Source: Bolinopsis microptera (taxonomy: Eukaryota > Ctenophora > Tentaculata > Lobata > Bolinopsidae). From it: a stretch of 64,000 bases of DNA. This document shows, one piece after another, positions 33,332 to 63,770 of this stretch. The translations under genes and the position numbers were made by a program. The notes under the pieces are model-generated. The model did no database searches. It saw nothing but the letters and a program-made list of their open reading frames with translations, and was not told the origin of the DNA. The DNA lies in the NCBI RefSeq assembly GCF_026151205.1, contig NC_087075.1, positions 4,748,359 through 4,812,358 of the forward strand. The letters run 5' to 3'. Numbering within the stretch: the first letter of the stretch is position 1; every line of letters begins with the position of its first letter.

Positions 33332-34830
33332 TTATAACATTTTTAGAAACTTACAAATGATCATCTGCTCGTCCTCCTGTTGGATATAACCGTCACAACA
33401 GGAACTAGCACAGCAGCACCTGCCAGCTTTATTGTAGCAGCACATACAGCAGCACCTTCCGTGACGGATGCAGCCGAAATACCTGGAAAATAAGGTGGTA
33501 ATACCTGGGAAATAAGGTGGTAATACCTGGGAAATATCAAATAAGGTGGTAATACCTGGTAAATAATGTGGTAATACCTGGGAAATAAGGTGGTAATACC
33601 TGGGAAATAAGGTGGTAATGCCTGGGAAATAAGGTGGTAATACCTGGAAAATAAGGTGGTAATACCTGGAAAATAAGATGGTAATACCTGGGAAATAAGG
33701 TGGTAATACCTGGGAAATAAGGAAGTAATACCTAGAAAATAAGGTGGTTCAAATAAGGTGGTAATACCTGGTAAATAATGTGGTAATACCTTGAAAATAA
33801 GGTGGTAATACCTGGGAAATATCAAATAAGGTGGTAATACCTGGTAAATAATGTGGTAATACCTGGAAAATAAGGTGGTAATACCTGGGAAATATCAAAT
33901 AAGGTGGTAATACCTGGTAAATAATGTGGTAATACCTGGAAAATAAGGTGGTAATACCTGGGAAATAAGGTGGTAATACCTGGGAAATAAGGTGGTAATA
34001 CCTGGAAAATAAGGTAGTATTAATGTTAATTTGGCATGATTGTGACAAAAATGAACCAACAATGGGCATATAACCTACCACACAACTGCGACTAGGATGA
34101 TGAAGCAGAGGGTGATAAGATTGCTTATAACAGCACTGTAGCACCCAACTGTAACAGGGTTCACTTTGTGTGTTCTCTTCTTGTGCTCCTCCTCCAGCTT
34201 CTTGGAAGATGTTTTTATCTGTTCAACTATTTTGTTTCCTTCTATCGCCTCCACTGATTTCTTCTTTTCTGGTTTAGCATCGGATGGTTTAGCCTCGGCT
34301 GGTTTACCCTCGGCTGGTTTAGCGGCTGCTGCTGCTGGTTTAGCGGCGGCTGCTGCTGGTTTAGCGGCGGCGGCTGCTGGTTTAGCGGCTGCTGCTGCTG
34401 GTTTAGCGGCTGCTGCTGGTTTAGCGGCTGCCGCTGCTGGTTTAGCGGCGGCGGCTGCTGGTTTAGCGGCTGCTGCTGCTGGTTTAGCGGCTGCTGCTGC
34501 TGGTTTAGCGGCTGCTGCTGCTGGTTTAGCGGCTGCTGCTGCTGGTTTAGCGGCGGCTGCTGCTGGTTTAGCGGCTGCTGGTATCTCTTCTTTAGCTGGT
34601 TCAGATTCCGTAGTTTCAACAGCAGGAATTTCTAATTCATCCTCTTCGTCTTCAACGGTCGTTTCAGTTTCGAGAGAAGGAATGGCTATTTCAGTTTCAG
34701 ATGTAAATTCATGTTCTTCAACTTCAACGGTCGGTTCTTTTCCCCCACTTTCAGTTTCAACCGTTTTGATAACAACAGGCACTGCAAGAGCTGCAGATAT
34801 CACAAACAACAAAACCACAAAAAGCCTCAT
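33332..34830 (-). CDS. Secreted/type I membrane protein with KPAAAAA repeats and Cys-rich tail, two exons, 300 aa
   Basis: Exon 1 is 34830-34079; exon 2 is 33482-33332. The start MRLFVVLLFVISAALA is a clear signal peptide; I prefer it to an in-frame ATG 30 codons upstream. An acidic segment follows (about 17-90), then about 13 repeats of K-P-A5 (with AAK and AAAK variants), a basic segment and a hydrophobic helix (VISNLITLCFIILVAVVW). The intron splits the W codon in phase 2; the spliced tail reads YFGCIRHGRCCCMCCY and CCCASSCCDGY, a Cys cluster typical of palmitoylated juxtamembrane regions (inferred). Unspliced, TAG follows the W directly, giving a tail-less form. A strong donor (gtaagt) at about 33354 could add further exons. 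Function unknown. Confidence 0.72.
33483..34016 (-). repeat. 22-bp minisatellite filling the intron, each unit resembling a splice acceptor-donor pair
   Basis: About 24 units of 22 bp; on the minus strand each ends ttatttcccag or ttattttccag and the next begins gtattacc. The final unit supplies the acceptor of exon 2, which itself begins GTATTTC. Some units carry an extra 'gatatt'-type variant. Every unit therefore has a pyrimidine-rich AG followed at once by GT. Confidence 0.9.
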
Positions 34831-35975
34831 ATCTTGAGGATAATAAAATATATCGAACCAAAATGATAAACTACAACAGAAGACTTGATTATCCTGTAAA
34901 ATGCTTGTACAGTAACACACTCGTACCAGTTATAATTAGACAGTGTACATGTTGGAGTTGGAGACTTTTCTCCAGGTTACTGCCATGTGTTACTTTATAT
35001 TACCATATTAGGACATGTAAACTTGTCAACCATGTGGGATTTAATTGTTCACATAATCATAACCATATTACCTAAAAGAATCATATTATGTTCACATATT
35101 ATGAGGGTGGAGGGAGCTTGGAAATGATTATGGAAGTGTGATTGGTACACAGTAGCTACGTGTGGTGTACAGAGGGAGGTATAAAGTGTGTCAAATCTGG
35201 CTTACGTATTATGTAAACGATCTTCTGATATATCAGTAAGTCAGTATAAACCTGGTCAGTTGTTGCAAGTGAAAGGTTACGTGGCGGCCCTGGGGTTTGG
35301 AGTTCGAGATGTTTATTATTTGTTAATTGGATACGTTAATTAAATGTTAATTGGGACGGAAAAGATTTGAGTCATACTGTTAGTTATTTTACAGTTGTTT
35401 TATAATTCGCGATAGTAAGAAAGTTAATTTTACATTATTCATGATTTATTTTTAATAAAAGAAATTTGTAAAAACTGTTAATATTTATGTGTTTTTTTTA
35501 ATTATAATAACTTGAACAAATGAAATTTGCAGGATCTATTCTGTTATTAAGTTATTATTATTAATATATATCATTAAGTTAAAATCAGTCAACAATTATT
35601 AGACAATATAAAATATTTCGGCAAGTTCTCCCAAAACTTTGAATTGCCTCGCTTTAAAAGTTAATAATAAATACCTGAACTAGCTGACTAATCGTGAGAT
35701 TAGTGTATAACTATTTAAACGTATATCAAAATCATTCAAAATACTGTAATAGGACATTTTCTTCAAACAACAAGGATTTAAAATACAGCAATTACTCCTT
35801 TAAATTGAAACCAAAAGAGGGACAAAATTACTTCACCTCTTTGTTAGATAAAAAGCACATTAATTAACTAATTTTTTTGACATCGCTCCTTACTATGGGA
35901 TTGCAACATAATTCCTGTTCTTGAGAAATTTAAAATATTATATCACGTCATTTTAAGACTGGATATATTTGAAAT
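34831..35975. other. Gene-free stretch upstream of the KPAAAAA gene
   Basis: AT-rich; likely includes the promoter of the minus-strand gene at 34.8 kb, but no element could be assigned. Confidence 0.4.
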
Positions 35976-36440: not shown

Positions 36441-37901
36441 GGCTCTATCAGAAGATTCGTCACAAAAGCTATATTTTCTACGGAGTTTAAAAAGTTGTTT
36501 CAGTTAATAAAGTCTTGAGTCTCACTAAATATTCACTAAATGTCAATGTCCATCGCATATAATTTCTTTGTCCGTCTTGGCATGTTGAATCGTATTATTA
36601 ACATGTGATATATTTTCCTTCACGACTTTGTCTGAACTCTTAATTCAGCCAACACCTGAAAGATTACACATCATAATTATAGACGTACAAATTATGTGGA
36701 AAATAAACTGGCTATTTTAATGTCACATAAAATAAACTGAATTATATTATTTATAAATTGGGACATTAAAAAAACGGCAGAAATTCGGACTCACCACTCG
36801 ATAAAATATCTGACATCGAGTACTGTTCGATCTTCTTCTTCGTAGGGGGCAGTGGTCTTTACTACTAAGGAATAGATCAAAACCACTATCCTGTAGTGGG
36901 ATGGAACTCTCTCGTAACCTATCTGAGTAACAACATGTATTAAATGAGGAGGAGGGTCTTATAAATGTACCCTCTCTTTTTATTTAACTTTAATGTCAGT
37001 TTGATTGGGCGGAATACGGATGGAAAATACAACTTTTTAAAAGTATACCACACAACTTTAACAAATGATGATTACAAAGAAATTTTGAACTCACAGATCT
37101 TCAAGAAACCTAACATAATCCTCGTATCACAGTGCAGAGAGACAGGGTGTATCACAGTGCAGAGAGACAGGGTGTATAACAACCTTGTCTCACTTGTCTC
37201 ACCTCAGTTCACCTGAATGAGATCATGTACAATACCTTATAGCCTTATGTACTGTTTGAATCTAAAGATACAAACTGTCTTTAAATTTAATGATCGCCAC
37301 GAAAATTACAAATCAAATCAAAAACATGTCCCATACTAGCCTGTTATCTTAAGATTTTCTGGACATTATGTTATAGCGTCCTCACTCCTCATATCAGAGT
37401 ATCCGAGGAATGCAGAGTTCATTGTTTATTGTCCAGGTATCTTGTATCCAGTGTTTGACGGTGTTGTTAGGAACAGTGGGTAATTGTTTCAAAGGTATTT
37501 AAAAACTATCAAAAATAGGATTGCAAATGCAATTTCAATTTCAATATAAGTTATGATATAAAGATCCGAATATAAATTTATCATTAAATTTATTATACAT
37601 GAATAAGTTACCAAGTTGTCTGTCAATTATAAAGCATACGAACTTGTTTCGATCTAATCATTTTCCCAAAAGATTAGAAGGAAACATTTCATAGCTTTTT
37701 GTAGGTCAACATCAATATTAAAATCTAACATATTGTCTGTATTTTGTACTCAGTAGTTTTAGTAAAAACTAATTAGTGCCAAAACGTCGATTATTTTATA
37801 CAATTTTACCAGTTATTTACCTTGTTTCATATACTCAAACTCGGTCAGCGGTCTAACGAGACATATGTCTAACATATTGAACGATTGAAATAAAAACCGA
37901 C

Positions 37902-38111
37902 CTGTTTTGAAACAATTTGGAGGTTCTCCGGTCAGAACAAGAGTTTTGTTATGGCAAATCGCTCCACTTCCTCCCTTGTTCAGGTATTTCCTCGGGCATT
38001 TAAAGGTTATTTTCGTTCCGTTTTGTACTGGCAATTTAGGCACCGTCAAAACTGTTAGTTTATTCGTCACATTCCACCATTCTTCCTCCTGATCTTCGCT
38101 CGTACATTTTC
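37902..38111 (-). CDS. Sushi/CCP domain exon of the Ig gene
   Basis: A 210-bp exon, phase 1-1, acceptor ...cactcgcag and donor gtcggt. The peptide has four cysteines in CCP spacing (RKCTSEDQ, ITFKCPRKY, GAICHNKT, PPNCFKT), with G and P/N positions usual for sushi domains (LPVQNGTKITFKC). One tryptophan pair (EEWWNV) lies after the first Cys, unlike the usual Trp near the C-terminus. Sushi domains bind proteins in complement and adhesion molecules. Confidence 0.82.
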
Positions 38112-41100
38112 CTGCGAGTGAAATGATGACAAAAAATCATTTGACCTGGATATTGATGGTAAATATATGAGGGAACGAACCAAACTTTTTCTGACACGTG
38201 ATGACAATGTGTAAAGTCATGTGTAAAGTCATAAAATTCGGTAAATGCCTACCAATACCACTCACAAGAACGTCGATTATTCGTGAACTAGAATCTTAAT
38301 AACCCTGGCCTGATTATAGCTTACATAGTACTATTTTACTATATTAATCAGATTAAAACTCACTGTAGACATTAAGCATCAATTTCGTCTCAGACGGAAA
38401 GTTTTGTTCAACTTTTACCACACAAGTGTACTCTATATCTTCTCGTGGGTCGTTAACAGTCAGAGTAGAGATCAGGATATTCCCAGTCAGCTCCCGTTCA
38501 GTGGATCCTTGAAATGTTTGGCCTCCCTCCATCCAACTCACCGTAGCATTAACAGAAATTCCAGTAATTTTACAGGAGATGATGTTGTCTTTACCGTGAT
38601 GTACGTGTTTGTCTGTAGTTGTGACATCTGCAATGTGATTTGTTTATTTAATTGGTTATATTTCATTTTATTTGGATGAATATAACTTGGGCCTCATCAC
38701 TTAACATCCTCCCAGATTCAGTGCATAAGATGAAGCAAAATAACATTAGATGAAGCAATCTGATAAAAAACAATCATTCAAACAATTTATATTACAAGTT
38801 AACGTACCGTAAACGTTAAGATTGACAGTGGTGTCCGAGTGGCTGGAATCAGGTAAGGATCCAGAAGTGACTCTGCAAGTGTAGGCAGTATCTTCATTCA
38901 CAAGAGTTCCGTTTACAGCAAGAGTTGATGTTTGTGTCCCCCCAGAGTGGTTTCCTTGAACAGCAGCGGTGAACTTTTCAGTTGGAACTGGTCCTGTACT
39001 AGTTCGCCAGGTCACTGTTGCTGTTTCTGTCAATCCAGTGATAACACAGGATATGGTTGTGTCTGAGCCCTTCTTCACTTCTTTGTTTACAGATTGAACG
39101 TCTGAAGTAAGTTTTAGTAAAACATTTCGATTTTTGGCTCTGAGATAAACATTAGAACTGAAATTAAAAAACAGTATGTAACATGACTACAAGAACATAC
39201 CATAAACATTAAGATTGACGGTGGTATCCGAGTGGCTGGAATCAGGTAAAGATCCGGAAGTGACTCTGCAAGTGTAGGCATGATCTTCATTCACTAAAGT
39301 TCCCTCAACAGCAAGAGTTGATGTCTGAGTCCCTCCGGATTGGCTTCCATGAACATGGGTGAACTTTTCAGCTGGAACTGGTCCTGTACTAGTTCGCCAG
39401 GTCACTGTTGCTGTTTCTGTCAATCCAGTGATAACACAGGATATGGTTGTATCTGAGCCCTTCTTCACTTCTTTGTTAACTGGTTCAACGTCTGAAATAC
39501 ATTTTTGTAAAACATTTGGATTTTTGGATCTGAGATAAAAATTAGTACTGACATCAAAAAAACCGTAATGCAAGATGACTGTTAGCGTTTAAGAACATAC
39601 CGTATACGTTCAGATTGACGGTAGTATCTGATTGGCCGGAATCAGGTAAAGATCCGGAAGTAACTCTGCAAGTGTAAGCAGTATCTTCATTCACTAAAGT
39701 TCCCTCAACAGCAAGAGTTGATGTCTGAGTCCCTCCGGATTGGCTTCCTTGAACAGAAGTAAACTTTTTAGTTGGAACTGGTCCTGTACTAGTTCGCCAG
39801 GTCACTGTTGCTGTTTCTGTCAATCCAGTGATAACACAGGATATGGTTGTATCTGAGCCCTTCTTCACTTCTTTGTGTACTGATTCAACGTCTGAAATAC
39901 ATTTTTGTAAAGCATTTGGATTTTTGGCTCTGAGATAAAAATTAGTACTGACATCAAAAAAACCGTAATGCAAGATGACTGTTAGCGTTTAAGCACATAC
40001 CGTATACGTTAAGATTGACGGTGCTATCCGAGTGGCTGGAATCAGGTAAAGATCCGGTAGTGACTCTGCAAGTGTAGGAAGTATCTTCATTCAAAAGAGT
40101 TCCGTCAACAGCAAGAGTTGATGTCTGAGTCCCTCCGGATTGGCTTCCTTGAACAGAAGTAAACTTTTCAGTTGGAACTGGTCCTGTACTAGTTCGCCAG
40201 GTCACTGTTGCTGTTTCTGTCAATCCAGTGATAACACAGGATATGGTTGTATCTGAGCCCTTCTTCACTTCTTTGTGTACTGATTCAACATCTGAAGCAT
40301 TTTTTGTAAAATAAATTCAATTTAGGCTGTAAGATAAAAATTAGTACTGACATTAAAAAACCGTAATGCAAGATGACTGTTAGCATTTAAGAACATACCG
40401 TAAACGTTAAGATTGACAGTGGTATCCGAGTGGCTGGAATCAGGTAAAGATCCGGAAGTGACTCTGCAAGTGTAGGCAGTATTTTCATTCACAAGATTTC
40501 CGTCAACAGCAAGAGTTGATGTCTGAGTCCCTCCGGATTGGCTTCCTTGAACAGAAGTAAACTTTTTAGTTGGAACTGGTCCTGTACTTGTTCGCCAGGT
40601 CACTGTTGCTGTTTCTGTCAATCCAGTGATAACACAGGATATGGTTGTATCTGAGCCCTTCTTCACTTCTTTGTGTACTGATTCAACGTCTGAAATACAT
40701 TTTTGTAAAGCATTTGGATTTTTGGCTCTGAGATAAAAATTATTACTGACATCAAAAAAACCGTAATGCAAGATGACTGTTAGCGTTTAAGCACATACCG
40801 TATACGTTAAGATTGACGGTGCTATCCGAGTGGCTGGAATCAGGTAAAGATCCGGTAGTGACTCTGCAAGTGTAGGAAGTATCTTCATTCAAAAGAGTTC
40901 CGTCAACAGCAAGAGTTGATGTCTGAGTCCCTCCGGATTGGCTTCCTTGAACAGAAGTAAACTTTTCAGTTGGAACTGGTCCTGTACTAGTTCGCCAGGT
41001 CACTGTTGCTGTTTCTGTCAATCCAGTGATAACACAGGATATGGTTGTATCTGAGCCCTTCTTCACTTCTTTGTGTACTGATTCAACATCTGAAGCATTT

Positions 41101-44100
41101 TTTGTAAAATAAATTCAATTTAGGCTGTAAGATAAAAATTAGTACTGACATTAAAAAACCGTAATGCAAGATGACTGTTAGCATTTAAGAACATACCGTA
41201 AACGTTAAGATTGACAGTGGTATCCGAGTGGCTGGAATCAGGTAAAGATCCGGAAGTGACTCTGCAAGTGTAGGCAGTATATTCATTCACAAGAGTTCCG
41301 TCAACAGCAACAGTTGATGTCTGAGTCCCTCCGGATTGGCTTCCTTGAACAGAAGTAAACTTTTCAGTTGGAACTGGTCCAGTACTAGTTCGCCAGGGCA
41401 CTGTTGCTGTTTCTGTCAATCCAGTGATAACACAGGATATGGTTGTATCTGAGCCCTTCTTCACTTCTTTGTGTACTGATTCAACATCTGAAGCATTTTT
41501 TGTAAAATAAATTCAATTTAGGCTGTAAGATAAAAATTAGTACTGACATTAAAAAACCGTAATGCAAGATGACTGTTAGCATTTAAGAACATACCGTATA
41601 CGTTAAGATTGACGGTGGTATCCGAGTGGCTGGAATCAGGTAAAGATCCGGAAGTGACTCTGCAAGTGTAGGCAGTATCTTCATTCACAAGAGTTCCGTC
41701 AACAGCAAGAGTTGATGTCTGAGTCCCTCCGGATTGGCTTCCTTGAACATGGGTGAACTTTTCAGCTGGAACTGGTCCAGTACTAGTTCGCCAGGTCACT
41801 GTTGCTGTTTCTGTTAATCCAGTGATAACACAGGATATAGTTGTATCTGAGCCCTTCTTCACATCTTTGTGTACTGATTCAACGTCTGAAATACATTTTT
41901 GTAAAGCATTTGGATTTTTGGCTCTGAGATAAAAATTAGTACTGACATCAAAAAAAACCGTAATGCAAGATGACTGTTAGCATTTAAGAACATACCGTAT
42001 ACGTTAAGATTGACGGTGGTATCCGAGTGGCTGGAATCAGGTAAAGATCCGGAAGTGACTCTGCAAGTGTAGGCAGTATCTTTATTCACAAGAGTTCCGT
42101 CAACAGCAAGAGTTGATGTCTGAGTCCCTCCGGATTGGCTTCCTTGAACATGGGTGAACTTTTCAGCTGGAACTGGTCCAGTACTAGTTCGCCAGGTCAC
42201 TGTTGCTGTTTCTGTCAATCCAGTGATAACACAGGATATAGTTGTATCTGAGCCCTTCTTCACATCTTTGTGTACTGATTCAACGTCTGAAATACATTTT
42301 TGTAAAGCATTTGGATTTTTGGCTCTGAGATAAAAATGAGTACTGACATCAAAAAAACCGTAATGCAAGATGACTGTTAGCGTTTAAGAACATACCGTAT
42401 ACGTTAAGATTGACGGTGCTATCCGAGTGGCTGGAATCAGGTAAAGATCCGGTAGTGACTCTGCAAGTGTAGGCAGTATTTCCATTCACAAGAGTTCCGT
42501 CAACAGCAAGAGTTGATGTCTGAGTCCCTCCGGATTGGCTTCCATGAACATGGGTGAACTTTTCAGCTGGAACTGGTCCAGTACTAGTTCGCCAGGTCAC
42601 TGATGCTGTTTCTGTCAATCCAGTGATAACACAGGATATGGTTGTATCTGAGCCCTTCTTCACTTCTTTGTGTACTGATTCAACATCTGAAGCATTTTTT
42701 GTAAAATAAATTCTATTTAGGCTGTAAGATAAAAATTAGTACTGACATTAAAAAACCGTAATGCAAGATGACTGTTAGCATTTAAGAACATACCGTATAC
42801 GTTAAGATTGACGGTGCTATCCGAGTGGCTGGAATCAGGTAAAGATCCGGTAGTGACTCTGCAAGTGTAGGCAGTATCTTTATTCACAAGAGTTCCGTCA
42901 ACAGCAAGAGTTGATGTCTGAGTCCCTCCGGATTGGCTTCCTTGAACATGGGTGAACTTTTCAGCTGGAACTGGTCCAGTACTAGTTCGCCAGGTCACTG
43001 TTGCTGTTTCTGTCAATCCAGTGATAACACAGGATATAGTTGTATCTGAGCCCTTCTTCACATCTTTGTGTACTGATTCAACGTCTGAAATACATTTTTG
43101 TAAAGCATTTGGATTTTTGGCTCTGAGATAAAAATGAGTACTGACATCAAAAAAACCGTAATGCAAGATGACTGTTAGCGTTTAAGAACATACCGTATAC
43201 GTTAAGATTGACGGTGCTATCCGAGTGGCTGGAATCAGGTAAAGATCCGGTAGTGACTCTGCAAGTGTAGGCAGTATCTTTATTCACAAGAGTTCCGTCA
43301 ACAGCAAGAGTTGATGTCTGAGTCCCTCCGGATTGGCTTCCATGAACATGGGTGAACTTTTCAGCTGGAACTGGTCCAGTACTAGTTCGCCAGGTCACTG
43401 TTGCTGTTTCTGTCAATCCAGTGATAACACAGGATATGGTTGTATCTGAGCCCTTCTTCACTTCTTTGTGTACTGATTCAACATCTGAAGCATTTTTTGT
43501 AAAATAAATTCTATTTAGGCTGTAAGATAAAAATTAGTACTGACATTAAAAAACCGTAATGCAAGATGACTGTTAGCATTTAAGAACATACCGTATACGT
43601 TAAGATTGACGGTGCTATCCGAGTGGCTGGAATCAGGTAAAGATCCGGTAGTGACTCTGCAAGTGTAGGCAGTATCTTTATTCACAAGAGTTCCGTCAAC
43701 AGCAAGAGTTGATGTCTGAGTCCCTCCGGATTGGCTTCCTTGAACATGGGTGAACTTTTCAGCTGGAACTGGTCCAGTACTAGTTCGCCAGGTCACTGTT
43801 GCTGTTTCTGTCAATCCAGTGATAACACAGGATATAGTTGTATCTGAGCCCTTCTTCACATCTTTGTGTACTGATTCAACGTCTGAAATACATTTTTGTA
43901 AAGCATTTGGATTTTTGGCTCTGAGATAAAAATTAGTACTGACATCAAAAAAAACCGTAATGCAAGATGACTGTTGGCATTTAAGAACATACCGTATACG
44001 TTAAGATTGACGGTGGTATCCGAGTGGCTGGAATCAGGTAAAGATCCGGAAGTGACTCTGCAAGTGTAGGCAGTATCTTTATTCACAAGAGTTCCGTCAA

Positions 44101-46683
44101 CAGCAAGAGTTGATGTCTGAGTCCCTCCGGATTGGCTTCTTTGAACATGGGTGAACTTTTCAGCTGGAACTGGTCCAGTACTAGTTCGCCAGGTCACTGT
44201 TGCTGTTTCTGTCAATCCAGTGATAACACAGGATATAGTTGTATCTGAGCCCTTCTTCACATCTTTGTGTACTGATTCAACGTCTGAAATACATTTTTGT
44301 AAAGCATTTGGATTTTTGGCTCTGAGATAAAAATGAGTACTGACATAAAAAAAAACCGTAATGCAAGATGACTGTTAGCGTATAAGAACATACCGTATAC
44401 GTTAAGATTGACGGTGCTATCCGAGTGGCTGGAATCAGGTAAAGATCCGGTAGTGACTCTGCAAGTGTAGGCAGTATTTTCATTCACAAGAGTTCCGTCA
44501 ACAGCAAGAGTTGATGTCTGAGTCCCTCCGGATTGGCTTCCATGAACATGGGTGAACTTTTCAGCTGGAACTGGTCCAGTACTAGTTCGCCAGGTCACTG
44601 TTGCTGTTTCTGTCAATCCAGTGATAACACAGGATATGGTTGTATCTGAGCCCTTCTTCACTTCTTTGTGTACTGATTCAACATCTGAAGCATTTTTTGT
44701 AAAATAAATTCTATTTAGGCTGTAAGATAAAAATTAGTACTGACATTAAAAAACCGTAATGCAAGATGACTGTTAGCATTTAAGAACATACCGTATACGT
44801 TAAGATTGACGGTGCTATCCGAGTGGCTGGAATCAGGTAAAGATCCGGTAGTGACTCTGCAAGTGTAGGCAGTATCTTTATTCACAAGAGTTCCGTCAAC
44901 AGCAAGAGTTGATGTCTGAGTCCCTCCGGATTGGCTTCCTTGAACATGGGTGAACTTTTCAGCTGGAACTGGTCCAGTACTAGTTCGCCAGGTCACTGTT
45001 GCTGTTTCTGTCAATCCAGTGATAACACAGGATATAGTTGTATCTGAGCCCTTCTTCACATCTTTGTGTACTGATTCAACGTCTGAAATACATTTTTGTA
45101 AAGCATTTGGATTTTTGGCTCTGAGATAAAAATTAGTACTGACATCAAAAAAAACCGTAATGCAAGATGACTGTTGGCATTTAAGAACATACCGTATACG
45201 TTAAGATTGACGGTGGTATCCGAGTGGCTGGAATCAGGTAAAGATCCGGAAGTGACTCTGCAAGTGTAGGCAGTATCTTTATTCACAAGAGTTCCGTCAA
45301 CAGCAAGAGTTGATGTCTGAGTCCCTCCGGATTGGCTTCCTTGAACATGGGTGAACTTTTCAGCTGGAACTGGTCCAGTACTAGTTCGCCAGGTCACTGT
45401 TGCTGTTTCTGTCAATCCAGTGATAACACAGGATATAGTTGTATCTGAGCCCTTCTTCACATCTTTGTGTACTGATTCAACGTCTGAAATACATTTTTGT
45501 AAAGCATTTGGATTTTTGGCTCTGAGATAAAAATTAGTACTGACATCAAAAAAAACCGTAATGCAAGATGACTGTTAGCATTTAAGAACATACCGTATAC
45601 GTTAAGATTGACGGTGGTATCCGAGTGGCTGGAATCAGGTAAAGATCCGGAAGTGACTCTGCAAGTGTAGGCAGTATCTTTATTCACAAGAGTTCCGTCA
45701 ACAGCAAGAGTTGATGTCTGAGTCCCTCCGGATTGGCTTCCTTGAACATGGGTGAACTTTTCAGCTGGAACTGGTCCAGTACTAGTTCGCCAGGTCACTG
45801 TTGCTGTTTCTGTCAATCCAGTGATAACACAGGATATAGTTGTATCTGAGCCCTTCTTCACATCTTTGTGTACTGATTCAACGTCTGAAATACATTTTTG
45901 TAAAGCATTTGGATTTTTGGCTCTGAGATAAAAATGAGTACTGACATCAAAAAAAACCGTAATGCAAGATGACTGTTAGCGTTTAAGAACATACCGTATA
46001 CGTTAAGATTGACGGTGCTATCCGAGTGGCTGGAATCAGGTAAAGATCCGGTAGTGACTCTGCAAGTGTAGGCAGTATTTTCATTCACAAGAGTTCCGTC
46101 AACAGCAAGAGTTGATGTCTGAGTCCCTCCGGATTGGCTTCCATGAACATGGGTGAACTTTTCAGCTGGAACTGGTCCAGTACTAGTTCGCCAGGTCACT
46201 ATTGCTGTTTCTGTCAATCCAGTGATAACACAGGATATGGTTGTATCTGAGCCCTTCTTCACTTCTTTGTGTACTGATTCAACATCTGAAGCATTTTTTG
46301 TAAAATAAATTCTATTTAGGCTGTACGATAAAAATTAGTACTGACATTAAAAAACCGTAATGCAAGATGACTGTTAGCATTTAAGAACATACCGTATACG
46401 TTAAGATTGACGGTGCTATCCGAGTGGCTGGAATCAGGTAAAGATCCGGTAGTGACTCTGCAAGTGTAGGCAGTATCTTTATTCACAAGAGTTCCGTCAA
46501 CAGCAAGAGTTGATGTCTGAGTCCCTCCGGATTGGCTTCCTTGAACATGGGTGAACTTTTCAGCTGGAACTGGTCCAGTACTAGTTCGCCAGGTCACTGT
46601 TTCTGTTTCTGTCAATCCAGTGATAACACAGGATATAGTTGTATCTGAGCCCTTCTTCACATCTTTGTGTACTGATTCAACGT
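37902..46683 (-). CDS. Tandem-immunoglobulin plus sushi domain protein (partial gene, 22 exons seen)
   Basis: Read on the minus strand, 20 near-identical Ig exons (46683 down to 38808) are followed by a divergent Ig exon (38627-38364) and a sushi exon (38111-37902). Every exon is in phase 1 at both ends, so any set can be spliced in frame. If all are used they encode about 2,100 residues of extracellular repeats. The architecture (Ig array then sushi/CCP) is that of a secreted or cell-surface adhesion or recognition protein. Neither the signal-peptide exon (expected above 46.7 kb) nor a transmembrane or terminal exon (expected below 37.9 kb) was identified, so the gene is incomplete at both ends. 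No Ig stop codons or broken cysteines were seen. Function is unknown; an immune or allorecognition role is only a suggestion. Confidence 0.82.
38364..38627 (-). CDS. Divergent immunoglobulin domain exon
   Basis: A 264-bp exon, phase 1-1, with acceptor after tgcag and donor gtgagt. The Ig core is seen as NIISCKITG (B-strand Cys), ATVSWMEGG (C-strand Trp) and DIEYTCVVKV (F-strand Cys). It resembles the array domains in layout (VTWRTS versus VSWMEG; LMLNVYS versus NLNVYG) but is much diverged, consistent with an old copy at the 3' end of the array. Confidence 0.85.
38808..46683 (-). repeat. Array of 20 tandem Ig exons, ~400-bp period
   Basis: Exons (plus coordinates): 38808-39101, 39201-39491, 39601-39891, 40001-40291, 40399-40689, 40799-41089, 41197-41487, 41595-41885, 41996-42286, 42396-42686, 42794-43084, 43194-43484, 43592-43882, 43993-44283, 44394-44684, 44792-45082, 45193-45483, 45594-45884, 45995-46285, 46393-46683. 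All but the first are 291 bp. Each encodes one 97-residue Ig domain: TISCVITG, VTWRTSTGPVP, a variable EKFTHVQGSQSGG segment, and DTAYTCRVT. Introns are 107-110 bp (acceptor tttcag or cttcag, donor gtatgt) and nearly identical too. Two intron families alternate, one ending in an 'aaatacat' acceptor type and one in a 'gcatttttt' type. Changes cluster in the loop after TGPVP (A/T-E/K-K-F-T-H/S-V-Q/H). Confidence 0.92.
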
Positions 46684-46790
46684 CTGAAATACATTTTTGT
46701 AAAGCATTTGGATTTTTGGCTCTGAGATAAAAATTAGTACTGACATCAAAAAAACCGTAATGCAAGATGACTGTTAGCGTTTAAGAACAT

Positions 46791-47598
46791 CACAATGCTG
46801 GCAAGCATGACCGCCGCTCTTATATTCACAATACTATTTACCCCCTTTACTATTTACCCCCTTTACTATTTACCCCCTTTACTATTTACCCCCTTTACTA
46901 TTTACCCCCTTTACTATTTACCCCCTCTGCTATTTACCCCCTTTACTATTTACCCCCTTTACTATTTACCCCCTTTACTATTTACCCCCTTTACTATTTA
47001 CCCCCTTTACTATTTACCCCCTTTACTATTTACCCCCTTTACTATTTACCCCCTTTACTATTTCCCCCTTTACTATTTACCCCCTTTACTATTTTCCCCC
47101 CTTACTGTTTACCCCCATTCTAATTCGATAGAAATAGTTATTTGGAGGATTTCAAAAAATTTGTGCAAAATACGCGCCAGCATGTTATACGAAATTAGGT
47201 AATCACAATGCTGGCAAGCATGACCGCCGCTCTTATATTCACAATACTATTTACCCCCTTTACTATTTACCTCCTTTACTATTTACCCCCTTTACTATTT
47301 ACCCCCTTTACTATTTACCCCCTCTGCTATTTACCCCCTTTACTATTTACCCCCTTTACTATTTACCCCCTTTACTATTTACCCCCTTTACTATTTACCC
47401 CCTTTACTATTTACCCCCTTTACTATTTACCCCCTTTACTATTTACCCCCTTTACTATTTCCCCCTTTACTATTTACCCCCTTTACTATTTTCCCCCCTT
47501 ACTGTTTACCCCCATTCTAATTCGATAGAAATAGTTATTTGGAGGATTTCAAAAAATTTGTGCAAAATACGCGCCAGCATGTTATACGAAATTAGGTA
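46791..47598 (+). repeat. Duplicated block of 16-bp minisatellite (tttactatttaccccc)n
   Basis: Two copies of a ~400-bp block, starting cacaatgctggcaagcatga at 46791 and 47204. Each holds about 17-18 units of a 16-bp motif, then ends attcgatagaaatagttatt...gttatacgaaattaggtaa. The second copy is about 18 bp shorter, roughly one unit. The block abuts the Ig array exactly where the next exon's splice donor should be. Confidence 0.93.
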
Positions 47599-50500
47599 AA
47601 AAACCCAAAATCGCCATATTCAGGTGCCTTAAAAACCACGTTAAAAATGAGTAAGAGATCTGAAACTTTGCAGGGTGTCTAGACGTTGACCAAATCGAGT
47701 GTAAATGAAATCTCAAGTTTCAGGAGTATCGGGAAGTGGGTTTCCTGGAACCCCTGTTTTACAACAGATTGTCGTGAAGTATAGTATATAATATGTATAT
47801 ATGTATAGACGCTTTGGCAGTCAATTGTAGCCTACATGTAAGTGTCCGTAGATTCAAAAGTATAAAAGATAGAGTCATTTCGAACCACAGGTTTTAAAGA
47901 TAATTGTTTATACTTTAGTTTACATTATATTGAAAAATAATTTAACGTCATCATCATCACTTGATGACGTCATCAAGTTAAGTGTTTTTAAAACTTGATT
48001 TTTGACAAAATAACAACTTTTAAAATCGATTTTAAACCATTAAGGAGTAATTTTATTCAAAATCTGAGGATATTTTCATCTTAGATAATTGTTCAAGCAT
48101 TCTGAAAATCTACCGGAAAATGTTCCTACTTTGCTCCTTCATAAAGATATTCGCTATTGAAGTTAGTGCTTTTTTGAAGAATAATTGTATAAAAACACAA
48201 AAGTTGTGAATCAGTATTCTCTGGTGTTGGGCCATCCCTTGGGTTGTGGAGCTCAATTGTGCTATCTAAAGGTCTAAATTGTGTTATAGGCTAGTTTTAA
48301 AGTTGAAAATCGAAAAGTTGCACACGTGGGGACACGCCCAAATTGATTTAAAATTGCTAAAATCACTGAAAATTGTTATTTTCACGATTTTTATCAACTT
48401 TGGAGTCCCGTTGTGATTCAAGTTCTATTTGAATTTTTCTGAAACTTTGCATGCTTATCAAACTATATATAAAATACCACTATGCAAAAATTTACGGTGA
48501 TTCAATATTGTATGCGCACGCAACGTCCGCTTAAAGTTTGCACGTGCGAAAGGTGAGCATTTTGCTCATTCGTGATTTCGAATATATTCTGCTTTCCCAC
48601 GATATTTAAATGGCATTATATATGAAATGAGTAAAAAGTGCCATATTCAGTGTGCTATCGACAGATATGCCTACCTAAACACAAGGAAATGTTTTAATGC
48701 AATTTTAAGACGTTGAAATTGCATCTTTATAATTATTAACTTATAACTGATTAATTAAGTTATCAGTTGACCCTGACATTAAACAAAAAGAGTTGATCGT
48801 TTACCAAAACTCATAATCAATAATTATGGGTATAGTAGACAAATACTGTTTTAAGCTTTTTGACAGAAATCTGTTACTGGAAACTGATGGAAACGCTAAT
48901 TGATACCCAAAACTAGAATGTCGAGTTCACGCTTTGATCATAATTTCCCAACTCGAAATACGTCTACTAAGTGACAGAACATAAGGTTTTGACGAAAACT
49001 GTGACCTTCATGGTTTCTCACAACTATGACGTAAATTGATTTGTAACAAATTGAATTCCTTTGCTTATCGACTAACAAAACACACCTGACAATTTTCACC
49101 TACGTCAGAGATAACCTGTTCTAGTGTTGAATTCTCGTGGGTTGTCTGTTAAACGTGTAAAATGAAACCCTATTGACCATGGTGTTAATTTTTTAGTACG
49201 GATTGCGTAACAGCAAGAGTACTGAGTAACCATATATGGTGAGGAATGAAGATACAAGAACAAAATTTAATAATGTCGTCATATAATTAATGATGATATC
49301 TGACGCGATTGTGACGTAAATTGCTGGGAGTTTCCTGGCTGTAGTTAATTAAACCAGATTGTAGCATGAAGTATAAAAACCCACCTCTCGCTTCAGTCTT
49401 GGAAAGATTTTTTCAAGTTGTGTCCTTTGTTATAAAAGCTTTGAAATATTTATTTTGCTCATTTTCCCTTGTAAGTAATGATTTTTTGGCCTTGTGTCTG
49501 TCAAGGTCACAAATAATTTTACGGCTTTGCATACATCGGGCACCTTCTTTGTCTGCCTCTACGTGGCATAAATGTGAAACAAAATCATATTATTGAAGCT
49601 TTATTGCGACCCTTAAATAAAAATATACATTAAATTTCATTTAATTAATTTGATTATCTTAGTCTTTGCGTCAGTCATTTTCAGTTTTCCAAATAAATTA
49701 TTTCATACGGTCATGTCACGTGATCGAGACAACATTTTAAACCTGTGTCCTGTTTGGTGATACGGAGTCAGTGTTCAGAAATGCATGTTTTAAGTTGGTT
49801 TTAATTGTCGGGGGCCCTTGCACTTTTAGAAAAACCTTATAGCTCGACTGGAGAGTGGCTTAGCCCTAAATGATATGATTGGATCCACTGAAACAAGTTA
49901 TTAGTATTACAAAGTGCTAGTTCTGGCTAAATCGCATTATGGCATTATTTTCTTCGGCCTCCTTGATCATCTTTTTTTTGTGAAATTGAAAAAAGTTATC
50001 CTGGAATTTTATAATGTCCGTTAACGTAATATTCGGTAAAATCACACATGATAAGGGGTTGTCCTCTTTTTTCATCCGTATACTGTTAAATATGTAAAAT
50101 AGGAGGTTTTCAGTAACCAATAATTTATTTTATGTAGTGGATAACATTTGCATCGTGCAATAGCTGACATGTCAGGACCCAGAGCTCAACTTATAACGGC
50201 CTGGTCAGAGAGAATAAAAATCCAGGTATGTCCAATTATAATCATATCGACAAAATAATGCATCGTTTTATTTTCATACCAGACATTTATTATATAGGTA
50301 TAATAATTGTAGTTTTGAGTAAACATATTTTGTTGCACATTTTGTTCAAACTTTGTGTCTAGTGTACTCATTGAGTCATTTGAGTCTTGAGTACTACTCA
50401 AAACTCACGCATAGCAGTTGATAATACAACATTCCATTTCCAATGTTAGAGAGTTACGGTATTCATTACGCATAATATTGGTTCAAATAATGGGGAGCAG

Positions 50501-50790
50501 TGCAGCTGTATACACTGTCTAGTACAAACTCCAGTGGTTTTAGGCTGGGTGAGTTAACTCTCAACTATATCAATTTTCATTTTATTAGTTTTCGTTAATT
50601 TAAGGGACCATAGTTATAAAATATAAATATAAATCTTATTATTTTGGTCTCGTAAAAATATATTAGAAGCTCCTCAATTTTCAGAATATGGACAGTAATA
50701 TTGATTATTAATTGAATTATTACAACCTCTTTGTATAAATCAGTTAAGACTTTTTCGAAAAGGTGACATCCGTTTAATAATAATTATTTT
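47599..50790. other. Gene-free stretch
   Basis: AT-rich sequence with no supported gene. Short frames at 49366-49596 (+) and at 49917-50120 and 50186-50401 (-) show no domain, and no exon with a signal peptide for the Ig gene was recognised on the minus strand. Confidence 0.45.
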
Positions 50791-50804
50791 TCAGGGGAGT
50801 GAAA

Positions 50805-51010
50805 ATGACAAAATCTCAATTATTTTATCATGTTGTTGCACGGTCAATTAGCTGTATTGTGGATACTTATTTTATTTCCGGAAAAGATATTTTAAGAAGT
50901 TTCATAAAAAGCATGTTTTACAGGAACTTTGGAGTCAAGTTGTCTCAAATCCAACGCTCATTTATGGGTTGGCATCCTCTGAAGCTCCTGAAAATTGTCA
51001 TGTCCAGAGG
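50805..51010 (+). CDS. Possible 5' exon with start codon (uncharacterised)
   Basis: A 68-codon frame from ATG 50805 directly after an acceptor (atttttcag, 50785-50794), ending at a good donor (gtgagt, 51011). It contains no recognised domain. It ends in phase 2, while the next identified exons are read in phase 0, so it cannot be joined to them directly; another exon or another gene is possible. Confidence 0.3.
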
Positions 51011-51174
51011 GTGAGTAAAACTGTTAATTTAATGATTACCCCATTTTTTTGGATCCTTTGTTATTAAATTCAGGTTGCTGTAGACTAAAACACAAAATAG
51101 ATTAGTAATAGTGTCAATCTCGAGTTTGTTTAGATTATTAGACAAAGCTTTTTTTAAGTCAATGAAAATTACAG

Positions 51175-54100
51175 GAAAACGATTACCTATGTGAAAATAC
51201 GACAACCGGGGGTGGAGTTCTTGTACTGAAACAGAAAAACATTAAATGTAAAACGACACAAGCTCAGAGATCCAAGAAGAAAGAAAGAAAACAAAAAGTT
51301 TGTAACTTAACTTTGATATTAAAAAAAAGCTTATCAAAGTACGATTAGATTAATGATAATTACAATCGATTATTTTTTACTTTCTATACAATTACGAGAA
51401 ACATTGGCAGGCTTATAAAGCTAAGGTGAGTAAAAACAAACATGGACAATGCAGAACAGAATCCCTATCATTTGGAATTAATTTACACAACGGATTCGAA
51501 AGACTAGGCCTAGAAGAACAGCTGTGCAACAATTCAAAAAATGTAAGATTATAATTATTTGCATCCATAACTGTTTGTTTCTGACTTGTAATTAATTATG
51601 AGACATTTTTGTTTTATTTAGCTGTAAAATTGTGCAGCGTAAAATCATTATAGGTCGCATAAAATTTACACTTTACCAATATTTACATTAATTATAATAT
51701 TGCACAAAATTGCAGGAAAAATGTCATTCATACGAAAATAAGACAACAGGGGATGAAGCTGTCGCACAAAAAAAGAAACCCGTTAGAAAAACAAGAGCTC
51801 AGCGAAACAAAAAGAAAGAAGAAAAACGAAAAGTTTGTAAAATTTGTATTTTGAAATATTTTGATGTTTTTAATTAAATCTTTTTTATGCGCATTCAATG
51901 CAGACTAATTAACACTCCTTCCTAAAGAAATAAATTATAATACGTAGCGATTGAAATATATCAAAAGGTACTTAAACATCGATATTGTAACGAATTACAT
52001 GAAGAACAATTTGCAGGCTAAGGCTTTACAGTTAGAGATACAATTTCTAAAGCAGTTTGACGAAATAGAAATCATACAAAGATTGATATCTATCGAAGAA
52101 GAAGAAAAATATGAAAAAAGGACTGCAAAAAGAAGAAAGAAAGCAGCTAAAGTAAGTCTAGTCGTAAATTTAATTAAATCTCACAATTATAATTATTTGC
52201 ATGACCAACTTCTTATATACGACAACTTGGTTCATTTTGAGGTTTCTTATACTTCATTCCCAGTGCGAAATCATCAAAGACATTAGTGGAGGAGGAACAG
52301 ACAAACAATTCACAAAGAGTTTCAAGAGAAATTCGAAGAGAAAACGAATAGGAAGGAAATATAAAAAGCAAACTTCTGAGTCTTCCGTACACAAAAAAGG
52401 TAAGAAAATGTTATAAGAGTTGTGTTTATAAGTTGAGGATATAATTACTTTTACAATTTGGTGATTTTTTGATAGAGCAGCTTTCTGTCCGCAGGTCTTA
52501 TTGATAATTTAGTATTATGATCCTCAATGTCTGGCATTAGAAGGCTTTCGTAACCTTCGAGACTGCTTCGACTTGTTATATTTATCATTTTCAATCTACA
52601 GCCGCACTTTTCAGCTTTAATTAGAAATATTATAGTTTAACGTGCATGATGCAATCATAAACGTCACAAAATATTCCACAATTTGTTAATTCTAATGTCC
52701 CTTCTTTCACTTTGAAATGTTATTTTCATTGCACATTTTTGAAATACATGCCACTTCTAAACACAAAAATAATCAACACATTGGCCACAAAGTACGCACT
52801 GTACGTATTTTTTAATAATTACGTACGCATATTGTTTGAGCTTAAATTATAATATCCGGTCAATTATTACATATTTCACAGTCTCAATATGAACGTAAAC
52901 CCTCCATGTAACGATATTTAGCCTTTGGCTAATACTTTACGATTAAAAGGTAAACAAACTCATTAAAAATAGATTAGATCAGGAGGGTGCTATCAATCAC
53001 ATTGCTATTTGAATTTTATAAGTTTCTCCGCGAATAGCTAGCCTCGCTGCACAGCTGTCGTATGTTAGGCCAAAATATCTCACTACATGTAGTATGTACG
53101 CGTCGGTACTTTATTATCTTAGATCCCGAGAATATGAATATATTTGAGACTCGCACCAAATCTTTTCACCAGCCTGTTTGTTATAATCGTAATAATAATA
53201 ACGATTATATTCTTTATGCAGTTCATGTGAAAATATTTCTGTACATTGTATTTCAGATTTTCCCGAAGAAGACAGTCTTGAAAGCAGCAGGAATTCTTTG
53301 TTCAAAGATAATCAGAGAGATGATCAGCCTTTCAAAAGGGAAAGTGAAAGAAATAGTTCGCCTTCAGATGATAGAATGAAAGAGGATGAAGAATACCTAA
53401 TGAATGAGGAGAAATATGCTAAGGAAAGTGAAAGACAAAGTTTTCCTTCAGATGATGGAATAACAATGGATGAAGAATACCTAATGAATGAGAAGCAAGA
53501 TGCTAAGGAAAGTGAAATACAAAGTTCGCCTTCAGATGATGGAATGACAATGGATGAAGAATCCCTATTGAATGAAGAGCAAGATCCTAAGGAAAGTGAA
53601 AAATATCTACTAAGAAAAATGAAGCGTGCATTACGAAACATTCGCTACCACTCTTCTCCCGGTGGCAGATCTGCGCTAAACAAAGCAAAAAGCAAGTACC
53701 ACTCTTCTCCCGGCGGCAGATCTGCACTAAACAAAGCAAACAGCCAGTACCACTCTTCTCCCGGTGGCAGATCTGCGCTAAACAAAGCAAAAAGCAAGTA
53801 CCACTCTTCTCCCGGCGGCAGATCTGCACTAAACAAAGCAAACAGCCAGTACCACTCTTCTCCCGGTGGCAGATCTGCGCTAAACAAAGCAAAAAGCAAG
53901 TACTTCTCTTCTCCCGGCGGCAGATCTGCACAAAGTAGGTACTTCAATTCTCCCGGTGGCAGATCTGCACTAAACAAAGCAAAAAGCCAGTACCACTCTT
54001 CTCCCGGCGGCAGATCAGCAGCTAAGAAATATAGATCAGTCCCACATGTGAACGATCGAATGAAGGAAGGACTCCGAATGTTTAGGCAAAAACCAGAAAC

Positions 54101-54485
54101 CAGGCAAAAACGGAAGGATTATGAAGATTCGAAGAAAGAAAAACTGTCGCAGTCTAGAAGAACTCGGTATCGCCGAAGCAGATTGTTTGAAGAATTTGGG
54201 GAAGATTTTGACGATGACATAGATTATTGCTTGAAAAGGAAGCAGGCCATGAAACAGATAAGGACGCACACGACCCGCAACAATAAAAAATTGCAATTCC
54301 TGTTACACAAGGAGAAGATCAAGGGGTTCAGAAAAAGTGTCTTCCTCCCTAACCTACCATATGTTTCAAAAAGAGGAACTTTCAAATCGAAAACGTTCAT
54401 GAGGTCAAAGAGCAGGCTGACATGGAAAAATGCCGTTATTCGATTGATGATGGAGCATTTGAATGAATACCAACAGCATCATTAA
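51175..54485 (+). CDS. ORF1 of the Helitron-type element: Lys-rich protein with 17-residue repeats (spliced)
   Basis: Exons 51175-51297, 51716-51832, 52017-52151, 52264-52399 and 53257-54485 agree in phase (0, 0, 0, then 1). The first two resemble each other (ENTTTGGG versus ENKTTGDE; TQAQRSKKKER versus TRAQRNKKKEE), so they are duplicates. The third is predicted coiled coil (LQLEIQFLKQFDEIEIIQ). The long last exon has three ~28-residue acidic repeats (ESERNSSPSDD type), then eight copies of YHSSPGGRSALNKAKSK, alternating KSK and NSQ forms, then a basic region. A 15-bp mini-exon at 51411-51425 could lie between the first two. The true start codon is not identified. The final exon overlaps ORF2 by 23 bp. 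Role unknown; a nucleic-acid-binding partner of the transposase is plausible. Confidence 0.6.
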
Positions 54486-57400
54486 AAAATGGTACCCGTC
54501 TCTCAATTTTAAAGGAAAAACCAACCATTACAAAAAGAATTTTGTCGCATCACAGCTTCAGAGGAGAATTTTGAACAGCCGTGATCTGTGGATCAAAGTT
54601 TTATATGGCCGTTGTCATAAGTTGAACTTGACATCGGAGCAGCTTCTCAACAAAGAAAAGTTGGACACATCTGAAGAGAAGCGCCATGACAGCATCCTTG
54701 GCTATAAATGTCACAGAAAAGGTACGGAACCTTACTTTCCTATGTACAGCTTTCTCGGTGGGGAGCCATTCACATTTCGTTACAACAAGGCTTCAAAGAA
54801 GAGCAGAGAGGAAACGAGAAAAAGTGAACGATGTACTACCGACTGCATTCCTGCTGGGGGTTTTGCAGTAACTCGCTTCAAAGACTTCTTGGCAAGATGC
54901 AAAAATTTAGAAGTGAGAAATTCCAGAACCTTCGTTCAAGAGTCAAACAAGTGTGGCAATGTCAAAGCAAATGAAATCTACAGCTTGATAGTCGAGCAGC
55001 GTAATCACCCCGAAATCTGTTTAAGGAGGGAGGCGAAGAACAAGTGCTCAAGTGACTTAGTTCTGCTGAGACAATTGAGCGTCCACTCCAAAAATGCTCG
55101 ATCTATCTATAAGACTGTCAATGAAATGAAAACAGCCGACCAATTTGTGTCAGACTTGGATACGGCAACTGCAACAGGGGATATCGAGTATTTGATTAAA
55201 CTGCTGCAATACGAACCCCTGATTGCAGAAAAAACGTTCAAGGTTGAGAGACCGGAACAAATCATAAATGAGCAGTTTATGGAAGAAAACTTTCCTAAAC
55301 AGTATTTAGAATTCCTGACTGCAGTCAACGCCAACCATACAGTGCCTTGCATTTCTTGTCAAAGGCTGACTGAGGACGATCCTAAGAAATGTAAAACCAT
55401 AACATCTCGATGGAAGAAGGTGAACATCGTCAACTCAGAATACATGCTTCTTCTCCACTATCTGCAGTCAGATGAATGGCTTAAAATGGGAGGTGTTTAT
55501 GTTGACACGTTGGTGGGCAAAAGAATTTGCAACTACTGTCACACTAAAATGGACAAAGGGGAAGTTCCAAGGATATCAGTGAGGAACGGGATGAACGAAG
55601 GGATCGTTCCCATGGAAATAGCTGATTTGTCCCAGTTTGAGTGTATGTTCATTCGACAAATTTCAATGTTCCAAACGTTTTTAAAGCTGGGACCAAGTGT
55701 TGGAAATCGGCCAAACAATGAAAAAATGGCGGCAGTCAAAGGATTTAGTGTCCACATCCCGGTCCCAATACAGGCGAACGTTGAGCAATTAGCGGGAGGA
55801 GTGCCTCATGGACTGTTGAATCCAAAGAATTTTATTGTCCTTCATGGTCTGCCAAACAAAAACAGGAAGGTTTGGCAATCTTTGATTAATGTGGAGAAAG
55901 TCATTAAGGCAATAAAATGGCTCGTGAAGAACAACCCTCTTTATGAAAAAATAAACGTTCCAACAAAGAGTGAGATTCTTGACATGATGTGTGAGGTTGA
56001 TAGTGATATTGAAGATGGAGAGGGAGCGATTCCAAGAGACTTCTTTGATAGCTTTGATTGCTCTGACAATAAGAAAGCTCAAGATCCCTCCGATTCATCC
56101 TCTGCTACTTCTAGCGCTGGTTCGAGTATCAAACCGTCTACTAAGAGAACTTGCCATAAGAACAGTTACACGTCTGAAGACATGGACATGTCATTGCCTG
56201 AAATGCTACCTGCGGAAAAGAAAGAAGATGTTGCCGATATAAATGACGAATATCTTGACAATTTATGTGAAATGGAAAGCGGCAGCAACGATGATAATTC
56301 AAGCAATAGCTCCATATTTTCACTTCGTAGTACATTCACAAAATCAGCTAAATTACCCAATGACTCAACAAACATGGAAAGTGAAATCAGTGTTGATGAG
56401 GAACCACGCCAATCATGTGACAGTGAAATTAGTTTCAATGAGAATGAGACCATAGATAAGGGCGGTAATTGTCATATAAAACCGTTCAAGAGCGTGACCA
56501 GTGTCGACTTTAAAGACATGGAATTGAGTCTTGACGAAGAAGATCCCTCCTATAAGAATTTATGGAAGTTTTCTGCAACAGTCAGCAAAGAAGAAATGGC
56601 CCGGATAAAAAATATCTCTAATAGTAACAGCAGGAGGAAGTTGATTGCGCTAAAATGTGTGGTGCATATGGCTAGGATGCTAAACAGCAATGGTTCCCTT
56701 TGCGTTCGTTGCCATCAAGATGTCAAAAATTACAGAGATAGAGTCATTAATCTGTTGCGATTGGGAAAGAACACACTAGGCTACCAGCTGCTTCACATCC
56801 AAGCTATCCTAACGTCGTTTGCAAAGATGAGATCAGCATTGCTTGCAGAAGATGACTCGATCAAAACCAACAAGTGCTCCTTCTGTGTCCTAAATAAAGT
56901 CTCTAAAAATCCCCTCAAGAAGAAAGCTAGGCGTAACACAAAAGGCAGCATAAAAGCAGTTTCGAATAGCCATCAATTGAGAGCAAGCTGGGGAGCCAAA
57001 TTCTTTTATAGCACAAAAGTAAAAACTTTGTCCCTGTTAGATTCTATGAAAGAGGAAAGGCAGTTATGTGACGGATGCTACGAGGACGTTGAGAAAAAGT
57101 CAAGCAAAGGCATTTCACACTTTACGAAACCCTCACGATCTCTAACACTCAAAATACAAAAAAGGTCTACAGCTTTGTATGACTCGTACTGTGAAGTACA
57201 GGGGCTATATGCAAATGCTAATGATAATGAGTCACGTAGAGATGGTATGTGCATAAAGTGTGATCACCATATTTCCCTCTGCCAGGATATCCTCGATAAG
57301 AGGTTCGAGGATTTGGAATTACCTGCAGAGGAAATGAAATGTTCTGAGGTTATCGGCTTGAAAGATAAGGAAGAAACTAGGCTTCTCACGGAGAACTTCC

Positions 57401-63255: not shown

Positions 63256-63288
63256 ATGTTCTCAGAAGATGGAATCATTTTTTCACCT

Positions 63289-63616: not shown

Positions 63617-63756
63617 TTAATTCTTCGTGCAATTTGTTGTTATTTGCTGTTATTATGTAATATTATGTTGATGTTTGTTTTGATTTATTTGTTTATATTT
63701 GTGATGTTTTAAATTATTTTTTGTTGTTGAATTTTGCATAAGTAATTTAGCCAAAA

Positions 63757-63770
63757 CCCAATAAATTGGG
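63757..63770 (+). terminator. Possible poly(A) signal within a short palindrome
   Basis: The palindrome cccaataaattggg contains AATAAA at 63760-63765, about 500 bp past the protease stop codon. It may be the polyadenylation signal of the ORF2 transcript, or the subterminal hairpin of the element. A second AATAAA lies near 63852. Confidence 0.4.

Follow-up and report, generated by a model that had tools for sequence, protein, structure and literature searches.

A ctenophore gene with a lectin-type head and 27 near-identical Ig exons: a possible length-setting stalk

Exon array and gene at the locus

The window analysed here (64,000 nucleotides of Bolinopsis microptera DNA) carries, on the minus strand at 38808-46683, 20 near-identical immunoglobulin (Ig) exons in a tandem array with a unit of ~398-401 bp, for which TRF gives a period of 398 bp, 20.0 copies, 94% matches, and a score of 13,700. 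Nineteen of the 20 exons measure 291 nt and one measures 294 nt, and a splice-site check found every one of the 20 open, of phase 1-1, and bordered by AG before and GT after. Two structural claims of the earlier note on this DNA are thereby borne out, i.e., that 20 near-identical phase 1-1 Ig exons lie here and that, all of them being symmetrical, any number can be joined in frame. A degenerate pattern of the conserved core matches the genome 295 times (95 + 200), and its reversed form has 0 matches, so the array is real and far above chance.

The repeat units belong to the Ig domains (I-set/C1-set), with which Pfam, the core cysteines and tryptophan, and the fold all agree. In Pfam, C1-set (26.0 bits, cut-off 21) and I-set (24.6 bits, cut-off 23.7) both pass, and Ig_3, Ig_2, and ig score under their cut-offs; C19, W32, and C75 are invariant among 26 aligned repeat domains. 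An AlphaFold model of the repeat domain, with 26 related domains as input, is an Ig sandwich (pLDDT 81.2, pTM 0.69) in which residues 41-50 have a mean pLDDT of 60. Its best Foldseek match is NCAM Ig1 (5aea_A, E 2.0e-5), followed by myosin-binding protein C and, lower, titin M1 and M3.

The array is part of a larger gene (Table 1). The interval 37902-46683, which the earlier note had treated as the gene, keeps its array anatomy, while the gene itself extends ~26.7 kb further in the 5' direction and contains 7 more repeats. The spliced model comprises 37 exons, 9,535 nt, and 3,178 aa, with 0 stops and all joints in phase; with no fewer than 37 exons, the ctenophore gene looks intact. The encoded order is signal peptide, SUEL lectin, F-type-lectin-like domain, one Ig domain, 27 near-identical Ig domains, one further Ig domain, and a sushi-like domain, and the introns that join these domains are of phase 1. 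The 27 near-identical repeats (7 beyond the window and 20 inside, the latter being repeats 8-27 in 5' to 3' order) are all open with intact splice sites. The start codon lies at L001:9334, ~9.3 kb beyond the window end and 26.7 kb 5' of the interval above (L001 being the next 10 kb after the window end, so that an L001 position plus 64000 gives the window-equivalent position); the donor of the signal-peptide exon is GTAAGT. The gene spans ~35.4 kb, and its last sure exon ends at window position 37902. The model is drawn from genomic DNA: exon boundaries were set from splice signals and, in the 5' region, partly by homology to a neighbouring paralog.

Table 1. Features of the gene and of the insertion within it (positions in the window unless prefixed L001; gene features listed 5' to 3')
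Feature	Position	Strand	Basis or remark
Signal peptide exon	L001:9268-9334		gene model
SUEL lectin, 2 exons	L001:5942-6459		Pfam and PDB matches
F-type-lectin-like domain, 4 exons	L001:4620-5423		Pfam and PDB matches
Diverged 5' Ig exon	L001:3962-4237		gene model
Ig repeats 1-7	L001:1126-3818		gene model
Window part of insertion	46790-64000		minisatellite, Helitron-type gene, terminal-inverted-repeat element from 63747
Ig repeat 8	46393-46683	-	phase 1-1
Ig repeat 9	45995-46285	-	phase 1-1
Ig repeat 10	45594-45884	-	phase 1-1
Ig repeat 11	45193-45483	-	phase 1-1
Ig repeat 12	44792-45082	-	phase 1-1
Ig repeat 13	44394-44684	-	phase 1-1
Ig repeat 14	43993-44283	-	phase 1-1
Ig repeat 15	43592-43882	-	phase 1-1
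Ig repeat 16	43194-43484	-	phase 1-1
Ig repeat 17	42794-43084	-	phase 1-1
Ig repeat 18	42396-42686	-	phase 1-1
Ig repeat 19	41996-42286	-	phase 1-1
Ig repeat 20	41595-41885	-	phase 1-1
Ig repeat 21	41197-41487	-	phase 1-1
Ig repeat 22	40799-41089	-	phase 1-1
Ig repeat 23	40399-40689	-	phase 1-1
Ig repeat 24	40001-40291	-	phase 1-1
Ig repeat 25	39601-39891	-	phase 1-1
Ig repeat 26	39201-39491	-	phase 1-1
Ig repeat 27	38808-39101	-	phase 1-1
Diverged 3' Ig exon, phase 1-1	38364-38627	-	Pfam ig and I-set above cut-off
Four-cysteine exon, sushi-like, phase 1-1	37902-38111	-	partial PDB match
Candidate terminal exon, hydrophobic C-terminal tail	37488-37619, end approximate	-	splice phase and hydropathy search; tentative

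The head of the predicted protein carries two lectin-type domains. The first can be assigned by homology to the SUEL / rhamnose-binding lectins (Pfam PF02140, E 1.9e-17, 63.8 bits vs a cut-off of 31.4), with PDB matches to the L-rhamnose-binding lectin 5h4s (E 1.9e-39) and to CSL3 (E 7.1e-28); because latrophilins match as well (E 2.7e-9 and weaker), sugar binding by this domain is putative. The second shows homology to F-type lectins: Pfam returns F5_F8_type_C_2 (E 2e-8, 35.2 bits vs a cut-off of 27.8), and the best PDB match is the F-type lectin FBP32 (E 6.8e-15), with a Streptococcus fucolectin-related entry (E 2.3e-11) and the eel lectin 1k12 (E 2.4e-6) behind it. The fucose motif of F-type lectins is described as HX24RXDX4(R/K), together with a cation motif (PMC5712786, as far as its covered text goes). 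The latter is fitted by AVDGN, and the strict fucose motif is absent from the translation, which, counted by eye, reads HX25RXD, and the basic residues that follow stand at D+3 and D+7 and not at D+5; the domain is therefore named F-type-lectin-like.

At the other end of the protein, the closest paralog of the diverged 3' Ig exon is 59% identical and lies just 3' of an array on C2. The sushi domain that the earlier note placed after the array is plausible but weakly supported: the exon in question has four cysteines and a partial PDB match to a complement receptor related protein (1ntj, E 9e-5, residues 29-53), and no Pfam family is found for it at E 0.1. No membrane anchor was established. 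The best terminal-exon candidate from a search by splice phase and hydropathy is weak, as 5 of 300 dinucleotide shuffles equal its tail in hydropathy.

Between repeats 7 and 8, a single intron harbours an insertion of ~18.3 kb, from window position 46790 to window-equivalent position 65121. Both halves of the intron flank it, the intron donor GTAT is kept, and the intron GT and AG are in place. An ORF at 54463-62232 contains Helitron_like_N (E 3.6e-23) and PIF1 (E 3.9e-27) and also DUF6570 by Pfam, and the right end is formed by an inverted-repeat element of ~1.4 kb that has further copies on C2, C4, and C10. This right end was considered as a Helitron 3' end and rejected, as the same end occurs at 12 places (at most 1 mismatch), mostly in inverted pairs; occurring in such pairs with an AT duplication, it marks a terminal-inverted-repeat element, and the insertion is accordingly composite. 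At the left end lies a minisatellite (46832-47513) of 16-bp units (TACTATTTACCCCCTT), which sits in a 397-bp segment that is present twice at 99% identity.

Two other reading frames were seen on the minus strand of the window: an ORF at 34078-34920, whose 281-residue product has a signal-like beginning, contains KPAAAAA repeats, and matches no Pfam family, and a single-exon frame at 25954-26844 that is reminiscent of GPCRs of the rhodopsin type, with a 7tm_1 match (E 1.7e-4) that falls short of the curated cut-off.

The exon family and the evolution of its repeats

The genome holds at least 295 Ig exons of this kind. Arrays of the same exon are found on C2, C4, C7, C11, and C13 among the matches listed, which comprise the best 150 of 815 rough candidates for the array survey and the first 100 of the 295 places for the core pattern. 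Array lengths differ among loci, and so do contexts, with some arrays adjoining SRCR and other modules. A neighbouring paralog on C4 (C4:4852000-4871999, from L002 and L008) has a similar Ig array, a 5' Ig exon, and F-type-lectin-like exons; some of its repeats are interrupted, of its 3' Ig exon only the beginning is present, and a SUEL domain was not found 5' within the paralog DNA examined. On C2, Ig exons, SRCR domains (PF00530, E 1.5e-12), a sushi-like exon, and a domain without a family come after an array.

Further observations were made on C2. Beside a 400-bp Ig array (L003:5746-8525 and L005:7485-9979), SRCR domains alternate with a repeated domain of ~150 residues that has no Pfam family, for which reason a methyltransferase-like name for it was dropped. 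At 18.54 Mb (L020:2463-8803), a different tandem array, with a period of ~880 bp, repeats a pair of diverged Ig exons, and a thrombospondin type 1 domain is found nearby. Elsewhere in the genome, innexins are present (18 matches), the best matches to a Hox-type homeodomain (19 matches) reach only 30-55% identity, and mitochondrial COX1 has no match in the assembly.

Within the gene, neighbouring repeats have a mean protein identity of 94.5% (25 pairs, range 82.5-100%), and nucleotide identity amounts to 95.9% for 26 exons and 90.2% for 25 introns, the 294-nt exon being left out of all identity, entropy, and dN/dS counts. Nineteen of the 26 repeat proteins are distinct; the repeats at the edges are the most diverged, and homogenisation is strongest in the centre of the array. 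Inside the window array, stretches two to five units long are found repeated at 98-99.9% identity. For comparison across the family, full-length, gap-free, and stop-free 291-nt exons of at least 60% identity were taken from a subset of the arrays known in the genome (145 exons, 107 distinct, 12 arrays, with the C11 arrays entered as three groups though nearly alike at 97-98%). Leaving out the single-exon group L014, 122 of 144 exons are closest to another exon of the same array. This within-array identity, together with the multi-unit copies, indicates that the repeats evolve in concert, through unequal crossing over or gene conversion.

The Ig exons across the family are under purifying selection. 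The dN/dS is 0.23 for the 107 distinct exons and likewise 0.23 among the 12 array consensuses, and in the segment after TGPVP (residues 39-53) it reaches 0.55 and 0.96, respectively. In dN/dS along the domain, the check that the earlier note had suggested, the segment thus does not exceed 1 across the family; positive selection across the family was sought by dN/dS and not found, the segment being at most about neutral. The claim that the exons are rapidly evolving and variable is not supported, given the likeness of neighbouring repeats, the family dN/dS, and the behaviour of the segment. Considered on its own, this gene gives dN/dS values of 0.59 overall, 1.12 in the segment, and 1.53 for residues 55-78; these derive from very few synonymous changes and leave room for diversification. 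The differences were also said to cluster after TGPVP. Within the window array such clustering is not significant: among the 19 exons of 291 nt, 5 of 15 sites vary in the segment and 18 of 82 outside it (p 0.34 by Fisher's test and 0.12 by random sites, with rank 21 among 97 circular windows). Across the 107 distinct exons of the 12 arrays, the segment is more variable than the rest (entropy 0.60 vs 0.30, p 0.005 by random sites, rank 4 among 97 circular windows).

Known systems of similar build

In its layout the gene resembles the bacterial Periscope Proteins (Sgo_0707, SasG, Rib), in which highly identical tandem folded domains stand behind an N-terminal ligand-binding head, and in which a break with the low-identity rule is taken as a sign of useful length variation (PMC8201768, PMC9704523, in the parts covered). 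That rule states that neighbouring domains of large multidomain proteins are usually <50% identical, an arrangement regarded as lowering the risk of misfolding (PMC8201768, same parts). The gene described here shares near-identical tandem domains (27, with neighbours at 94.5%) behind an N-terminal head of lectin domains, assigned by homology and putatively ligand-binding, a high DNA identity that favours change in repeat number, and the break with low identity between neighbours, as far as the covered parts of those papers allow the comparison. It differs in being an animal gene in which a separate exon encodes each domain, introns lie between them, and the fold is Ig of the I/C1 type; the Periscope Proteins are bacterial with C-terminal wall attachment, whereas here there is no cell-wall anchor. 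The word stem 'eukaryot' is absent from the main texts of PMC8201768 and PMC9704523 in their covered form. The array-length differences reported here are between loci of one genome, as opposed to variation between strains or individuals. This gene may work like the Periscope Proteins by analogy, and it is not filed as a member.

FREP-type proteins of molluscs combine one or two Ig domains with a lectin-type domain (fibrinogen) in one secreted protein. The joining of Ig and lectin-type domains is shared, but here the lectins are SUEL and F-type-lectin-like instead of fibrinogen, and the Ig domains are 27 near-identical ones instead of one or two. In arthropod Dscam exon clusters, where diversified exons are chosen in a mutually exclusive way, and in Hydractinia Alr, arrays of Ig exons or polymorphic Ig domains are used for recognition; in contrast to these, the repeats described here are homogenised and not diversified. 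For ctenophores themselves, hundreds of I-set/V-set genes are reported, and their SRCR/CTLD/Ig/sushi repertoire shares the phylum and the combination of Ig and sushi domains with this gene, but the covered part of that paper treats TIR2, NACHT, SRCR, and CTLD genes and contains no mention of near-identical Ig exon arrays or of this architecture (PMC11797021). A long chain of Ig domains also recalls titin/connectin, two domains of which are among the structural matches; an identity with titin is ruled out by the signal peptide and the lectins ahead of the Ig domains, and ctenophores are reported to be without connectitin (PMC12198301, in its covered part). A literature search, with subscription papers and supplements outside its coverage, returned no title or abstract on near-identical ctenophore Ig exon arrays or on a SUEL/F-type-lectin/Ig protein.

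A length-setting stalk and its alternatives

On balance, it is probable that the Ig array serves as a stalk that sets the distance of the lectin head, and that its repeat number, changed by recombination, sets reach and valency. The repeats are copied and kept alike instead of being diversified, which makes length more likely than specificity as the property that they set, and near-identical repeats that are maintained point to a stalk whose repeat number matters or is at least tolerated. The array would hold the lectin head off the cell or matrix surface as an extended structure, an extension that is taken from Ig chains in general (single domains were modelled here). Judged by its homologies, the head would be the obvious recognition part of the protein, with putative glycan binding, and its probable use would be glycan recognition in innate defence or adhesion. 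Recombination, and perhaps exon skipping (each exon being 1-1), may alter the repeat number and with it reach and valency; picking among near-identical exons would alter length and leave specificity unchanged. Selection would maintain the fold of each repeat and not diversify it. The same stalk unit is used in several contexts, i.e., in arrays of other lengths, some of them beside SRCR and other modules. Points that weigh against this reading are the dN/dS values within the gene, the departure from the strict fucose motif, the failure to establish a membrane anchor, and the mobile DNA that splits the array. It is tentatively possible that the gene belongs to an animal counterpart of the Periscope Proteins, a ctenophore multigene family whose near-identical Ig exons, by recombination and perhaps by exon skipping, tune the projection of glycan-binding heads, and in which individuals would differ in receptor length and not in the sequence of the binding site.

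Identical repeats could also arise passively by recombination and have no length function. The corresponding explanation, namely, an ordinary lectin/Ig surface or matrix protein in which unequal crossing over and gene conversion have produced a functionless repeat number, is considered somewhat unlikely; it accommodates the peak of homogenisation at the array centre with the most diverged repeats at the edges, the homogenised introns (90.2%), and the many arrays of differing length, and it is opposed by the family-wide dN/dS of 0.23 and by 27 of 27 repeats being open and spliceable here vs the interrupted units of the neighbouring paralog. These latter points speak for maintenance of the repeats, which leaves the importance of their number aside. 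The variable recognition or allorecognition receptor of the earlier note, built on the choice or diversification of Ig exons, appears improbable. Lectin heads do suit recognition, and a recognition-type protein is supported insofar as the SUEL and F-type-lectin-like domains are in the same frame; all exons could be freely combined, residues 39-53 (the low-confidence loop of the model) are the most variable stretch across arrays, and two regions exceed a dN/dS of 1 within the gene on little data. Near identity of the repeats, the low family dN/dS, and the lack of significant clustering in this array, however, argue against Ig exons as the variable part.

Least expected, and highly unlikely in our judgement, is a decaying gene whose array was cut by the 18.3-kb insertion and whose full protein is no longer made. 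Mobile DNA does split the array, in the paralog nearby the repeats are broken and the 3' Ig exon is truncated, and the terminal exon is without a confident candidate; yet 37 exons are free of stops and frame breaks, and GT and AG of the split intron were left in place.

The significance of the gene would lie in the rule on neighbouring domains, to which polyubiquitin is a known eukaryotic exception (PMC4862688, in its covered part). A secreted-type animal protein with 27 Ig domains whose neighbours are ~94.5% identical, which recurs in an early-branching phylum as a family of at least 295 exons, would offer a natural test both of this low-identity rule and of length variation as a diversifier of surface recognition. 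The SUEL/F-type-lectin/Ig architecture predicted here would join the receptor repertoire of a phylum whose recognition systems are poorly known.
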